A DNA stretch of 33,053 nt, taken from contig CACZST010000020.1 in assembly GCA_902783895.1 (NCBI GenBank), positions 1 to 33,053 of the forward strand, written 5' to 3'. The DNA is from an uncultured Erysipelotrichaceae bacterium (GTDB taxonomy: Bacteria > Bacillota_I > Bacilli_A > RF39 > UBA660). Below are positions 1 through 23,784 of the stretch, piece by piece (positions within the stretch are counted from its first letter, which is position 1; each line of letters starts with the position of its first letter). The translations under genes and the position numbers were made by a program. The notes under the pieces were generated by a model. That model ran no database searches and was not told the origin of the DNA. It was given only the letters and a program-made list of their open reading frames with translations.

Positions 1-1337
1 ATAATGAACAGATTAAACCACAAGATTTAGATGATGTTAATTATGTAATAGTTAAAAATAAAAATGGAAAATATGATTGGAGGCCAATCGAATTAATGCA
101 TCCTTTTATATACATCCAATTGGTTGAAACAATTACTTCAAGAGAGAATTGGGAATTTATTAGGAATAGATTTAAACAATATAGGAAAAATAAAAGAATC
201 AACTGCTGTAGTATTCCTGGAGAATCTGCTACAAAAAAGCATGATAAGAAAGCAAATATTTATAATTGGATAAACAATGTTGAACAAAAGTCAATAAAAT
301 TAGGATTGAATTATAAATATATGGCAACAACTGATATTTCTAATTGCTATGCTTCTATTTATACGCATGTAGTATCTTGGGCGTTATATACCAGGGAAGA
401 AGCTAAAAAGAAAGAAAAACGAACTAACAAAAAGCTTTTAGGCAATATAATAGATGAACTACTTAGAAAAATGAATTACAATCAAACAAATGGTATTCCT
501 CAAGGAAGTGTTCTGACTGATTTTATTGCTGAAATAATACTTGGTTATGCTGATGAATTGCTTACGGACAAGTTAAATAATTTTAATATAGATTACCAAA
601 TAATAAGATATCGAGATGATTATAGAATATTTGCAAATAACGAATTAGAATTAAATATAATTTTAAAAGCCTTGACAGAAGTATTATCAGATTTAAATTT
701 CAAATTAAATGTTACTAAAACGGAGATTACAGATAATATTATAAAGAGTTCTATGAAACAAGACAAATATGAATTATTAAGTTTATTTATCAATCCAAAT
801 CTAATATTAGAACAGAAATTACTAATTTTGAAGCAAATAAGTGATGACTATCATAGTGATAGCAGAATAAAGTTTTTACTTACAGATTTATACGAAAAAG
901 AAATAAAGAATTTGAAAAAAAAGCCAAGACATTATGCTGAAATAATTAGTATTATTGTAGATATTATGTTGAATAAACCAGGACTATATAATATATCTAT
1001 AGCCATACTTAGTGAATTGTTTAAATCATTATCAAAAGATGAAAAAAAATATTTTATTGATTTGATTATTAAAAAATTCAAAAACACCCCAAATACTGAA
1101 TATTTAAATATTTGGCTACAAAGGTTAACTATAGTTAGCGATAAAGAAAGAGATTATGATTGTAATATTTGCAAAAAAGTATATGATATGGAAACAAAAA
1201 TATGGAATTCCTCATGGCTAAATGTAGATATTAAAGAAGAAAGTATAATTGATTTAGAAGTTTTGAGTAAAATTTCACCGGTTATATCCTCAGAGGAAGT
1301 TGATAGATTTAATATAGATGGTTATATGAATAGCTAA
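1..1337 (+). CDS. Reverse transcriptase, defence/abortive-infection (UG/DRT-like) type, 5'-partial
   Basis: RNA-directed DNA polymerase. The frame is open from base 3 without a stop, and residues upstream of the first ATG (base 96) read into a family-like stretch (WRPIELMHP), so that ATG is internal and the true start lies left of the window. Numbering from the base-96 Met, palm motifs appear in order: TTDISNCY (motif A Asp about 80), GIPQGSVLTDFIAEI (motif B), RYRDDY (catalytic Asp 174-175) and KLNVTKTEI. About 170 further residues are helical and of unknown function. No group II intron maturase or HNH domain is seen. The motif B and C style recalls the chromosomal 'unknown group' RTs linked to phage defence; the exact subgroup cannot be set here. 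A small gene follows 52 bases later. RT identity is sure; the defence role is inferred. Confidence 0.9.
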   Translation, partial: NEQIKPQDLDDVNYVIVKNKNGKYDWRPIELMHPFIYIQLVETITSRENWEFIRNRFKQYRKNKRINCCSIPGESATKKHDKKANIYNWINNVEQKSIKLGLNYKYMATTDISNCYASIYTHVVSWALYTREEAKKKEKRTNKKLLGNIIDELLRKMNYNQTNGIPQGSVLTDFIAEIILGYADELLTDKLNNFNIDYQIIRYRDDYRIFANNELELNIILKALTEVLSDLNFKLNVTKTEITDNIIKSSMKQDKYELLSLFINPNLILEQKLLILKQISDDYHSDSRIKFLLTDLYEKEIKNLKKKPRHYAEIISIIVDIMLNKPGLYNISIAILSELFKSLSKDEKKYFIDLIIKKFKNTPNTEYLNIWLQRLTIVSDKERDYDCNICKKVYDMETKIWNSSWLNVDIKEESIIDLEVLSKISPVISSEEVDRFNIDGYMNS

Positions 1338-1389
1338 TTTTTGATAAATCTAGTGCAGTAATATACAAAAAAATATGTAGGTGATTTAA

Positions 1390-1605
1390 GTGAAAATAAA
1401 AGTATATCAAAGTAAAGATGATAAATATATAGAAATGGAAGTCGTTGCACAATATAAATATATTGGCGAAACAGATGAATTATCATTTATAAATGGTAAG
1501 ATATATAATTGTGTAGGTTACGATAAAAAGAGCAATATGGCAAGAATTGTAGATGAAACAAATGAGGATTATTTATACTCTTTAGATAATTTTGAAAAAG
1601 TTTAG
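1390..1605 (+). CDS. Small SH3-like protein
   Basis: A 71-residue protein starting at GTG, with an AGGTGA ribosome binding site about seven bases upstream. It is predicted to be mostly beta strand. The stretch KYIGETDELSFINGKIY followed by a final region with DYLY resembles small SH3-like barrel proteins of Firmicutes that share an 'INGKxYxV' core; this is from memory of the family and not certain. It has no signal peptide or membrane segment. It lies 52 bases after the reverse transcriptase and before a strong terminator, so the two are probably co-transcribed. Whether it works with the RT is unknown. Confidence 0.7.
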   Translation: MKIKVYQSKDDKYIEMEVVAQYKYIGETDELSFINGKIYNCVGYDKKSNMARIVDETNEDYLYSLDNFEKV

Positions 1606-1695
1606 AGGTAATGATAACTATAAATTGACAACTGATAAAATAAATAGAATTTTTGATATTCCAAAAGATATCTGAAAAATATTTGTTCAAAATAG

Positions 1696-1728
1696 ATCCA
1701 GAAACTAATCTGGATTTTTTTCTTTTTT
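1696..1728 (+). terminator. Rho-independent terminator after the RT/SH3-like genes
   Basis: A 7-bp perfect stem (ATCCAGA / TCTGGAT) with a 6-base loop is followed by a long T-rich run. It ends the RT and small-protein transcription unit. Confidence 0.85.
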
Positions 1729-1747
1729 AGGTACAATTTAGGTACAA
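1726..1747. repeat. Perfect tandem 11-bp repeat, possible integrase arm site
   Basis: The unit TTTAGGTACAA occurs twice head to tail with no mismatch. Fifteen bases later ACGGT occurs twice with a 10-base period (1763-1767, 1773-1777). Short direct repeats with a period near one helical turn are typical of arm-type sites for tyrosine integrases and excisionases. No integrase gene is present in the window, so a border of an integrated element is only inferred. Confidence 0.4.
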
Positions 1748-1824
1748 AAATACTAAAAAGCCACGGTAAATGACGGTTTATATCAATATAAAAAGGCCCG
1801 TATTTAAAGGGTTTAACACAATTT

Positions 1825-1883
1825 GGTCTCTTCTAACTGAAGAGAGCAGGCCCCCCTGAAGGAGCCATAAGGCTCCATTTTTG
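1825..1883 (+). ncRNA. Candidate structured small RNA with own terminator
   Basis: This G+C-rich island lies in a 404-base stretch without a gene (1606-2009). Three hairpins follow one another: TCTCTTC/GAAGAGA with loop TAACT (1827-1845); CAGG/CCTG with an all-C loop (1847-1858); and GGAGCC/GGCTCC with loop ATAA (1861-1876) followed by ATTTTTG, a good intrinsic terminator. No known RNA family is recognised. It could be a trans-acting small RNA, the 3' end of a longer RNA, or a simple terminator with upstream structure. The remaining part of the gap (1884-2009) is plain A+T-rich sequence in which nothing further is seen. Confidence 0.5.
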
Positions 1884-2864: not shown

Positions 2865-4157
2865 ATGAATGAAATAAAATGTCCAAACTGTGGAACTGCG
2901 TTTAAAATAGATGAAAAAAACTATGATTCAATATTAAAACAAGTAAGAGATAGTGAGTTTAATAATGAAATAAAAGCAAGAGAAAAGCAATATGAAACCG
3001 AAAAAAATTCCGCAATTAAACTTGCCCAAAATGAAGTTGAAAAAACATTCACAAATAAATTAAAAGAAAAAGAAATTGAAATAACTAACTTACAAAATAA
3101 ATTAAACACCAAGGAGCAGCTTCAAAAATCATTAGTAAATGAAACAAAACTAAATACCGAAAATGAATATAAAACTAAAATAAATGATTTAACTTTAAAA
3201 ATAGCTGAATTAGAAAACAATATTAAATTAAAAAATACCGAAAATAAATCAAAGATAGAAGAAATAGTTAATGAAAAAGATAAAACAATAGATGAATTAA
3301 AAAACAAAATTGTCTTAGAAAGCAAAGAATATAAACTCCGTGAACAATCATTAAAAGATGGTTACGAAAATAAATTAAAATCAAAGGATGAAATGATTGA
3401 TTACTACAAGGATATGAAAGCAAGGCAATCTACAAAAATGATAGGGGAATCATTAGAAACCCACTGTAGCTATGAATTTAATAAATTAAGACCGCTTTTC
3501 CCAAACGCATATTTTGAAAAAGATAATGATGCAAAAACTGGTTCAAAAGGTGATTTTATATTTAGGGATTATGATGATGGAACTGAATTTGTATCTATAA
3601 TGTTTGAAATGAAAAATGAAGCTGATTCAACTAAAGCAAAACACAAAAATGAAGATTTCTTTAAAGAATTAGATAAAGATAGAAAAGAAAAAAATTGTGA
3701 ATATGCGGTACTAGTCTCTCTTTTAGAAATTGATAATGATTACTATAATGAAGGAATTGTAGATGTATCTCATAAATATGAAAAAATGTATGTTATTAGA
3801 CCCCAATTTTTCATACCTTTAATCACTTTGATTAGAGGAGCTGCGATGAATTCATTAAAATATAAAAAAGAACTAGCTTTAATCCAAAATCAAAATATTG
3901 ATATTTCTCACTTTGAAGAAAACATGAATACCTTTAAAGAAGGATTCTCAAGAAATTATAGACTAGCATCTGAGAAATTTAAAAAAGCTATCGATGAAAT
4001 AGATAAAACCATTGATCATCTACAAAAAACCAAAGATGCATTAATCTCAAGTGAAAATAATTTAAGACTTGCCAACAACAAGGCTGAAGATTTAACCATA
4101 AAAAGACTTACTAAAAATAGTCCAACTATGGCCAAAATGTTTGAAGAAAATAAATAA
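2865..4157 (+). CDS. DUF2130 family coiled-coil protein with nuclease-like fold
   Basis: A 430-residue soluble protein. The N-terminus has a single CPNCG zinc-ribbon-like half (residues 6-10). A long Lys/Glu-rich coiled coil occupies roughly 25-190. The conserved DUF2130 core follows (about 195-330), including MIGESLETH, KGDFIFRD and FEMKNEAD; the spaced Asp and E-x-K residues match a PD-(D/E)XK nuclease-type active site, and RPQFFIPLI is another family signature. A second helical region (345-415) closes the protein. The start has an AGGAGG ribosome binding site. Members are widespread, often in accessory DNA; RmuC-like roles have been suggested, but the biological function is not established. 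Confidence 0.85.
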   Translation: MNEIKCPNCGTAFKIDEKNYDSILKQVRDSEFNNEIKAREKQYETEKNSAIKLAQNEVEKTFTNKLKEKEIEITNLQNKLNTKEQLQKSLVNETKLNTENEYKTKINDLTLKIAELENNIKLKNTENKSKIEEIVNEKDKTIDELKNKIVLESKEYKLREQSLKDGYENKLKSKDEMIDYYKDMKARQSTKMIGESLETHCSYEFNKLRPLFPNAYFEKDNDAKTGSKGDFIFRDYDDGTEFVSIMFEMKNEADSTKAKHKNEDFFKELDKDRKEKNCEYAVLVSLLEIDNDYYNEGIVDVSHKYEKMYVIRPQFFIPLITLIRGAAMNSLKYKKELALIQNQNIDISHFEENMNTFKEGFSRNYRLASEKFKKAIDEIDKTIDHLQKTKDALISSENNLRLANNKAEDLTIKRLTKNSPTMAKMFEENK

Positions 4158-9721: not shown

Positions 9722-9985
9722 ATGGAAGCATTAGAAAAGATCAAAGTTAGAAAAAGTAATGGTGAGCTTGCTGAAGCTGAAGTTTTACTTTGCTTTGAAC
9801 TTGAAGACACAGGAAAAAAATATATTCTTTATACTTTCAATGAAGTTGATGAACAAGCAATGGAAACTGTTCATGCATCAATAATTACCGAAAATAATAA
9901 TGGTTACGAATTAGATTCTATTCCAGCTGAGGAATGGAAAGAAGTTAAGGATATTATGCGTGACATAATTAGGAATGAGGGATAA
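9722..9985 (+). CDS. DUF1292 family protein
   Basis: An 87-residue acidic protein of the DUF1292 (YrzB-like, UPF0473) family. Typical traits are a central beta-rich part (FELEDTGKKYILYT), conserved Glu/Asp residues, and a C-terminal PAEEWKEV helix. Family members are common in Firmicutes, usually beside housekeeping genes, and their function is unknown. The start is fixed by the strong GGAGGGG ribosome binding site. The stop codon is one base before the next gene's ATG, so the two are translated together. Confidence 0.8.
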   Translation: MEALEKIKVRKSNGELAEAEVLLCFELEDTGKKYILYTFNEVDEQAMETVHASIITENNNGYELDSIPAEEWKEVKDIMRDIIRNEG

Positions 9986-21863: not shown

Positions 21864-23784
21864 ACTATCATTAAAAAACATTAAAAAAAGTTTTAAAGAT
21901 TATGCTATATATTTCCTAACATTAGTACTTGGTGTTGCTATATTCTACGTCTTTAATGCATTAGATAGCCAAGAAGCATTACTTAAACTTAATAATTCTC
22001 AAAAGGCAGTAATTGGTCACATGAATGAATTTTTAGGTGGTGTATCAATACTAGTAGCCGTTATATTAGGATTTTTAATAATATATGCTAGTAGATTCTT
22101 AATAAAAAGAAGAAAAAAAGAATTTGGAATATACCTAACATTAGGTATGAGTAAAAGACAAGTTTCAAAAATATTATTAATGGAAACCATAATTATCGGT
22201 ATAATATCATTAATAGTAGGACTTGGAGTAGGGGTAATCGCATCTCAGTTCATGTCTATTGTAGTTGCGAAAATGTTTGAAGTTGACATGTCTAAATTTG
22301 AGTTTGTCTTTTCAAGCGCTGCCGCAATTAAAACAATCATATATTACGCAATTATTTATCTAGTTGTTATGATTTTCAATGTATTTGCCATATCAAAATA
22401 TAAACTTATTAATCTATTAAATGCATCTAAAAAAGGAGAAAAAGTTAAAGTAAGGAATTTAACTTTATCAGTTATTTTATTTATTATAGCTGTAATAATC
22501 CTATCAACCGCATATTATCTTGCAATAAATAGATTAGATAGTTTAGACCTATTTGGTACCGCACTTCTAATGGGAATTATTGGAACATTTATACTATTCT
22601 TCTCACTATCTGGATTTATTTTAAAATTAATTCAGTCAAATAAAAAAATATATTATAAAAATTTAAATATATTTACCTTAAGACAAATAAACAGTAAAGT
22701 AAATACAACAGTATTTTCTATGAGTATCATATGTTTACTATTATTCTTCACAATAACTATATTTTCATCTGCTTGGAGTATTAATGCATCACTTAAAAAA
22801 GATTTAAAATATGGAACTCCAGTCGATGTTGTTTTCAAAAAACCAAATGAAGAAAACAGCCAAAATATTTATCAAGTATTAGAAAAAGAAAAATTAAATA
22901 ATTTTAGTGATTATGTTGAAGGTAACATGTATTTCTTCGATACTATAACCGTCGAAAATTTGATGAAACCAATAAAAAATCAGTTAAAAGAGCATAAACT
23001 TTTACTTAGTCAAAACGTCCCAGTTATGACAATATCAGAATATAATAAATTTGCTAAATTTTATGGATACAAAACACTATCTTTAAAAGAAAATGAATAT
23101 ATAATAATAGCTGATTACAAACAAATGGTAAATTACCAAAACAAAGCCTTAGAAAAAGGTGTAACTATCCAAATAGGTGATAAAAAATATAAATCTAAAT
23201 ATAATCACTGTATAGAATCACATATTGATTTAGGCGCTAATAAATCAAACACTGGTATCGTAATAATGCCAGATAATATAGATACTTCTAAAGCAAACTC
23301 ATCAATAGAATGTTTAGCTGCAAACTACAAAGGAGATAAAGAAAAAGTTGATGAAAAGATAATGGAAAATAATTATAAGCTATATAATGAAGATAAAATT
23401 ACTTCCAATACTAAGATAGATATATATGCTGCAAGTACAGGACTAAGTGCCATAATGGTTTTCATGGGACTTTATCTAGGAATTATTTTCTTAATCTCAT
23501 CTGCTGCCATATTAGCCTTAAAAGAATTATCAGAAAGCAGTGACAATAAAGAAAAATATGAAATGTTAAGACGAATTGGTGTTGACGATAAAAGTCTTGA
23601 TAAAGCACTACTTTATCAAATAGGAATATTCTTTATATTCCCACTTGTAATTGCCATTATCCACTCAATATTTGGAATAATGTCTGCTAGTAAAATAATT
23701 GAAAGTATGAATTTTGAAGTAAATCTATCATCAATTATTATGACTGCAATATTACTAATTACAATTATGGTAGTTATTTCTTAA
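21850..23784 (+). CDS. ABC transporter permease, BceB-like, apparent C-terminal frameshift
   Basis: A 644-residue FtsX-domain permease. The Bce layout is visible: one N-terminal helix, a group of three, further pairs, a large outside domain (about 315-525) between helices seven and eight, and a final group of three. Two FtsX-like cores are seen (RRKKEFGIYLTLGMSKRQ and KEKYEMLRRIGVDDKS). The reading frame stops at 23782 within the last helix (TIMVVIS). Shifting back one base near 23775 continues as VYFLITYITSKRIINEK to a stop at 23823-23825, just at the terminator; this is the typical family ending. A one-base deletion or sequence error is therefore likely. Whether the shortened protein works is unknown. 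Confidence 0.92.
   Translation: MMLFKLSLKNIKKSFKDYAIYFLTLVLGVAIFYVFNALDSQEALLKLNNSQKAVIGHMNEFLGGVSILVAVILGFLIIYASRFLIKRRKKEFGIYLTLGMSKRQVSKILLMETIIIGIISLIVGLGVGVIASQFMSIVVAKMFEVDMSKFEFVFSSAAAIKTIIYYAIIYLVVMIFNVFAISKYKLINLLNASKKGEKVKVRNLTLSVILFIIAVIILSTAYYLAINRLDSLDLFGTALLMGIIGTFILFFSLSGFILKLIQSNKKIYYKNLNIFTLRQINSKVNTTVFSMSIICLLLFFTITIFSSAWSINASLKKDLKYGTPVDVVFKKPNEENSQNIYQVLEKEKLNNFSDYVEGNMYFFDTITVENLMKPIKNQLKEHKLLLSQNVPVMTISEYNKFAKFYGYKTLSLKENEYIIIADYKQMVNYQNKALEKGVTIQIGDKKYKSKYNHCIESHIDLGANKSNTGIVIMPDNIDTSKANSSIECLAANYKGDKEKVDEKIMENNYKLYNEDKITSNTKIDIYAASTGLSAIMVFMGLYLGIIFLISSAAILALKELSESSDNKEKYEMLRRIGVDDKSLDKALLYQIGIFFIFPLVIAIIHSIFGIMSASKIIESMNFEVNLSSIIMTAILLITIMVVIS

Follow-up and report, generated by a model that had tools for sequence, protein, structure and literature searches.

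An Abi-P2 family reverse transcriptase gene next to a phage-type small gene at the inferred right end of an integrative element

At its left edge, the window (the whole 33,053-nucleotide stretch of DNA analysed here, from an uncultured Erysipelotrichaceae bacterium) carries a reverse transcriptase (RT) gene, a small gene in the same direction and a series of short signals (Table 1). The RT frame has 444 codons and is open at its 5' end. Since the window begins at base 1 of contig C20, within the gene, it is the contig edge that cuts the gene off. The source assembly amounts to 1.04 Mb and is 78% complete. The frame contains GIPQGSVLTDFIAEI at residues 164–178 (bases 492–536) and RYRDD at residues 202–206 (bases 606–620), the latter in the fuller stretch IIRYRDDYRIF. 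A Pfam search gives RVT_1 (E 4.7e-15) and nothing else, so there is no maturase domain, and the region past the RT core aligns with the solved Abi-P2 structure beyond the RT core of that structure. The small frame starts with GTG, 52 bp after the RT, and is preceded by a plausible ribosome site, AGGTGA. As features, the RT frame, the small gene and the hairpin that follows are far beyond chance. The original prediction had described an RT with these two motifs, no intron or maturase parts, a long helical C-terminus and a co-directional 71-residue gene before a terminator, and this observation is confirmed.

Table 1. Features at the left edge of the window
Feature	Position	Strand	Basis
Abi-P2 family RT gene, 5' end missing	3..1337	+	AbiP2 profile; 7r08 match; tree; 84%-identical relative
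71-residue SH3-like phage-type gene (phrog_34144)	1390..1605	+	phrog match; viral relatives; structure model
Terminator-like hairpin after the small gene	1694..1717	+	9-pair stem, then T run
Tandem AGGTACA boxes, candidate arm-type integrase sites, probable right end of element	1725..1750		exact copy in contig C28; both ends in G002
CCCCCTGAAG, shared core of element ends, putative right end/attR	1852..1861	+	both ends in G002; left end in C28
GGAGCC-ATAA-GGCTCC terminator hairpin beyond the element end	1861..1876	+	read as displaced terminator of the recG-downstream RNA

The RT is a member of the Abi-P2 family. The PADLOC AbiP2 model (PDLC03744) matches residues 3–437 with 517 bits (E 1.3e-155; profile positions 57–484 of 489). 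The second-best PADLOC model is RT_UG14 at 170 bits, Drt6 and Drt4 are also among the weaker profile scores, and the AbiK model gives about 99 bits. The best solved structure is PDB 7r08 (E 7.3e-69 over 414 residues, reaching past the RT core), and the next stands at 1.7e-19. 7r08 is taken as the Abi-P2 described structurally in PMC9508834, since the tyrosines 46 and 61 named there both coincide with tyrosines of the chain. The RTs of the P2-like phages P2-EC58, P2-EC30 and pro147 are about 35% identical to the window RT over 96% of the query, and relatives at 39–41% identity are found on Pediococcus and Enterococcus plasmids; no close relative was found among the viral contigs. Catalytic residues Asp111, Asp205 and Asp206 align with pro147 and 7r08. 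All of the aligned RTs have the motif A Asp and the RDD of RYRDD; they also share QTNGIP and RYRDDYRIF, with RFRDD in G028.

In the tree, the window RT pairs with an 84%-identical protein from a metagenome-assembled genome (MAG; locus L014, support 100/100). The pair falls inside an 11-row Abi-P2 clade (98/95), which includes the Abi-P2 proteins of P2 phages and also a more distant Listeria phage RT. The window RT is set apart from AbiK, Drt6, Drt3a/b and an Ec48-like retron RT, references that each score best on their own model, and from four group II-type RTs; UG14 and Drt4 are not among the rows. One row labelled group II by default (GII_L007) lies beside the Abi-P2 clade with weak support and on a very long branch. 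The original prediction had proposed placement in such a tree, and even with its 5' end missing the protein falls with the P2-phage Abi-P2 rather than with group II or retron RTs. Its guess of a phage-defence RT was right, and the profile, the solved structure and the tree sharpen it to Abi-P2. The window RT is a further case of a described family, and the locus itself is ordinary.

Comparison with the L014 relative, which is full length at 497 residues from an ATG at 313, places the missing part of the window RT at the first ~53 residues. In Abi-P2, the substitution Y61F abolishes DNA synthesis and Y46F does not (PMC9508834). The natural Met of the 7r08 chain is residue 32, and therefore Tyr61 is the Tyr of LPAY. 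LPxY is kept in L014, G566, G028, Pediococcus, L. kefiri and pro147, and appears as MPxY in G683. The corresponding segment of the window RT lies beyond the contig edge, and the window therefore cannot show that the gene of this genome is intact. The Abi-P2 copies on E. faecium plasmids are without the LPxY segment, and an IS30 gene overlaps their annotated start. Since the priming-tyrosine segment is missing, this widespread allele (L016 3908–5383; L096 3408–4883) may, on its sequence, be inactive or use another residue. A 129-codon Abi-P2 remnant is present in G009.

The 71-codon frame is a genuine gene because it is conserved in phage contigs and yields a confident SH3-like model. The predicted structure is all-beta, a seven-stranded SH3-like barrel with a mean pLDDT of 91. 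The protein matches phrog_34144 (E 5.6e-8), with no family of known function, and there is no match in Pfam, NCBIfam, PADLOC or plasmids. Foldseek on the model returns generic SH3-like barrels only, at E above 0.001, so the fold gives no function. Relatives in viral contigs are 43–80% identical and mostly adjoin terminase, portal or minor head genes. In the congener G018, a relative directly follows an apparent phage head gene, and in Streptococcus phage Javan173 an unannotated relative lies between portal-adjacent genes and the capsid genes. One phage contig carries a tandem diverged pair of the family just upstream of terminase and portal (L026 984–1223 and 1394–1624).

Two other readings of the RT gene were weighed. 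That it belongs to a group II intron or maturase, a retron or another UG/DRT class (UG14, Drt4 or Drt6) is extremely improbable; those UG and DRT profiles do match, as expected for relatives, but at least 340 bits below AbiP2, the maturase domain is absent, and the tree holds the RT apart from the retron, Drt6, Drt3a/b, AbiK and group II-type proteins. A group II intron RT was rejected on a TIGR04416 score of 55 bits against a cut-off of 300, RVT_1 as the only domain and the separation in the tree. A retron was rejected since no retron model appears in the best 25 PADLOC matches and the Ec48-like retron RT lies elsewhere in the tree. It is less far-fetched, yet still unlikely, that the gene is a decayed, non-functional Abi-P2 remnant at the contig edge. 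Its 5' end is unseen, and truncated or IS-abutting relatives are known, but 444 codons are still open with the catalytic residues intact, and the 84%-identical relative is full length.

The other matter to be weighed is whether the small gene is a partner of the RT, as a two-gene defence system in which the SH3-like protein would serve the Abi-P2 polymerase as sensor, adaptor or antitoxin. The two genes share a strand, the gap between them is short and a single terminator-like hairpin follows both; moreover, phage homologues could make the small protein a mimic of a phage trigger. Against this, the small gene was not found at the 12 other Abi-P2 loci examined, including that of the 84%-identical RT; the 12 include near-identical plasmid pairs and represent about nine independent cases. 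At L014, the DNA ceases to resemble the window shortly after the stop codon of the RT, and what comes next there is not the small gene but a membrane-type gene of 230 codons. Elsewhere the small-gene family occurs in the head modules of phages or in early regions that lack an RT, and Abi-P2 makes DNA in vitro as a single purified protein (PMC9508834). We therefore give the two-gene system very little credence. Much the same holds for a two-gene Abi-P2 variant in which the polymerase is modulated or triggered by the small phage-type protein, itself taken over from a phage; we think this quite improbable. As to an ncRNA partner in the style of DRT2 or DRT9, a search of the window with Rfam was negative, the interval from the RT to the small gene leaves little space for one, and the upstream side lies beyond the window. 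The original prediction had put forward an unrecognised operon of an RT and a small beta-barrel gene, and had named as a test whether related RTs also have the small gene next to them. With none at the 12 loci and a family that is phage-borne, the operon is not supported. Because the small gene is of a phage family and absent from those loci, the pairing is most likely chance cargo, with the small gene probably outside the Abi-P2 system.

The neighbours of Abi-P2 elsewhere are mixed. They are the C-terminus of HsdR at L014, an Eco57I-type methylase and a DUF5655 gene in G683, a recombinase in G566, a relaxase and conjugation genes in G028, a methyltransferase in Pediococcus, and DUF4145 and HsdS/HsdM in L. 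kefiri. Because they vary from locus to locus, the Abi-P2 RT is, as judged from gene order, a stand-alone cargo gene in mixed defence neighbourhoods. At one cargo locus of the P2-like prophage pro147 (L017 1373–5362), the Abi-P2 RT has a type IV (Ec48-like) retron as its direct neighbour on the opposite strand.

The signals to the right of the small gene point to a mobile element. The 26 bp holding the AGGTACA boxes recur exactly on another contig of this genome, C28, close to its end (22144–22169). A sister species (G002) has a complete element on one contig, with its two ends about 16 kb apart, AGGTACA boxes near both ends and CCCCCTGAAG at both. Its right end matches the window and its left end matches C28. 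In G002, window 9722–9985 has a counterpart at 71% identity in the second chromosomal gene past the right end, so the two right flanks are the same region. The cargo of the G002 element comprises AbiEi/AbiEii, HsdR, HsdM with a specificity domain and an OLD-like TOPRIM ATPase, and the element also encodes a phage replisome organiser and a tyrosine integrase with an arm-binding domain. The Abi-P2 gene and the small gene are thus probably the final cargo before the right end of such an element, the left end of which would lie on C28; the assembly does not join C28 to C20. Just outside the element end, the window has an ASCH-like gene (2389–2805; PADLOC candidate model PDC-M11B at 5e-18), followed by a DUF2130 coiled-coil gene (2865–4157). 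The locus adds to the settings of Abi-P2 the integrative elements of a lineage that has small genomes and is related to uncultured Tenericutes. Abi-P2 is exchangeable cargo there, since in other cases such elements bear AbiE and type I restriction systems.

Tracing the locus also exposed the attachment site of the element. Downstream of recG there is an RNA-like unit of ~95 nt with a promoter-like sequence, two hairpins and a terminator, and CCCCCTGAAG is invariant just before that terminator. The unit is present in this genome on contig C28 (21994–22098; L106 1501–1605), with intact examples at L088 1441–1534 and L102 1501–1609, and the hairpin beyond the element end in the window is likely its displaced terminator. 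A covariance model detects the RNA in 208 of the family's 291 genomes and in 125 of its 150 genera, usually as a single copy. Among 21 distinct sequences, 21 of 24 pairs are changed on both sides, as against 11 in shuffles. Because the alignment was fitted to the structure, this count is biased towards it, but slid controls drop to 35–47% paired cells, against 97% for the alignment itself. Rfam 15 gives no match at the units at E up to 1. The RNA is thus conserved, strongly covarying and unlisted in Rfam, and it is a better lead than the RT locus. The unpaired C-rich stretch before its terminator is reminiscent of C-rich regulators such as RsaE/RoxS.

In several genomes, integrases or AbiE genes lie directly downstream of this RNA. 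The loci in question are L066 (G002:C3:40000–59900), L067, L088, L107, L109 and L110. The recG-downstream RNA is a hotspot, in this bacterial family, for tyrosine-integrase elements carrying defence genes (AbiE, type I restriction, OLD-like). At occupied sites, the element supplies another hairpin and T-run and so seems to provide a substitute terminator, which would leave the small RNA terminated. Some attachment sites in relatives that look empty turn out to have an integrase a short way downstream (L088), and no truly empty site is claimed. Beside the small RNA in L108 (G006:C25) lies a bacterial gene (1698–2633) whose 311-residue product has a hydrophobic N-terminal segment and then a clear ubiquitin domain (Pfam PF00240, E 5.8e-22); acquisition from a eukaryote is possible.

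Taken together, we put at roughly 0.93 the probability that the window encodes an Abi-P2 RT at the right end of a tyrosine-integrase element, and that the adjoining 71-residue gene is unrelated and phage-derived. The RT gene would be cargo of an element inserted at the terminator of the recG-downstream RNA gene. By homology, its product would be an Abi-P2 polymerase with an RT-like palm and fingers and a helical C-terminal domain. The characterised Abi-P2 is a trimer that carries out untemplated, protein-primed DNA synthesis from Tyr61 (PMC9508834). By analogy, the window protein would also form a trimer, join the first nucleotide to a tyrosine of its own and make untemplated single-stranded DNA, with phage infection being aborted as a result. 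The coliphage Abi-P2 confers resistance to T5, and the exact defence mechanism of the Abi RTs is stated to be unclear (PMC11077055).

With the Abi-P2 of P2-like coliphages (7r08; PADLOC AbiP2), the window RT shares the core with RYRDD, QTNGIP and YTH motifs, a C-terminal region aligned past that core, the lack of a conserved partner gene and a mobile-element setting. It differs in its ~35% identity to the coliphage proteins and in residing in a bacterial integrative element, in a small-genome relative of an uncultured Tenericutes MAG, rather than in a P2 cargo locus. AbiK and AbiA are likewise Abi RTs reported with untemplated, protein-primed DNA and a helical domain (PMC9508834, PMC11077055), but the window RT scores far lower on the AbiK model than on AbiP2, and the HEPN domain of AbiA was not found in it by Pfam. 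The small gene agrees with the phrog_34144 phage proteins in sequence family, size and SH3-like fold, and differs in location, being next to an Abi-P2 RT at the end of an element and not in a phage head module. Finally, the 16-kb G002 element has the same AGGTACA boxes, CCCCCTGAAG core and right chromosomal flank, with a different cargo: AbiE, type I restriction and OLD-like genes in G002, and Abi-P2 with a phage-type gene in the visible part of the window's element.
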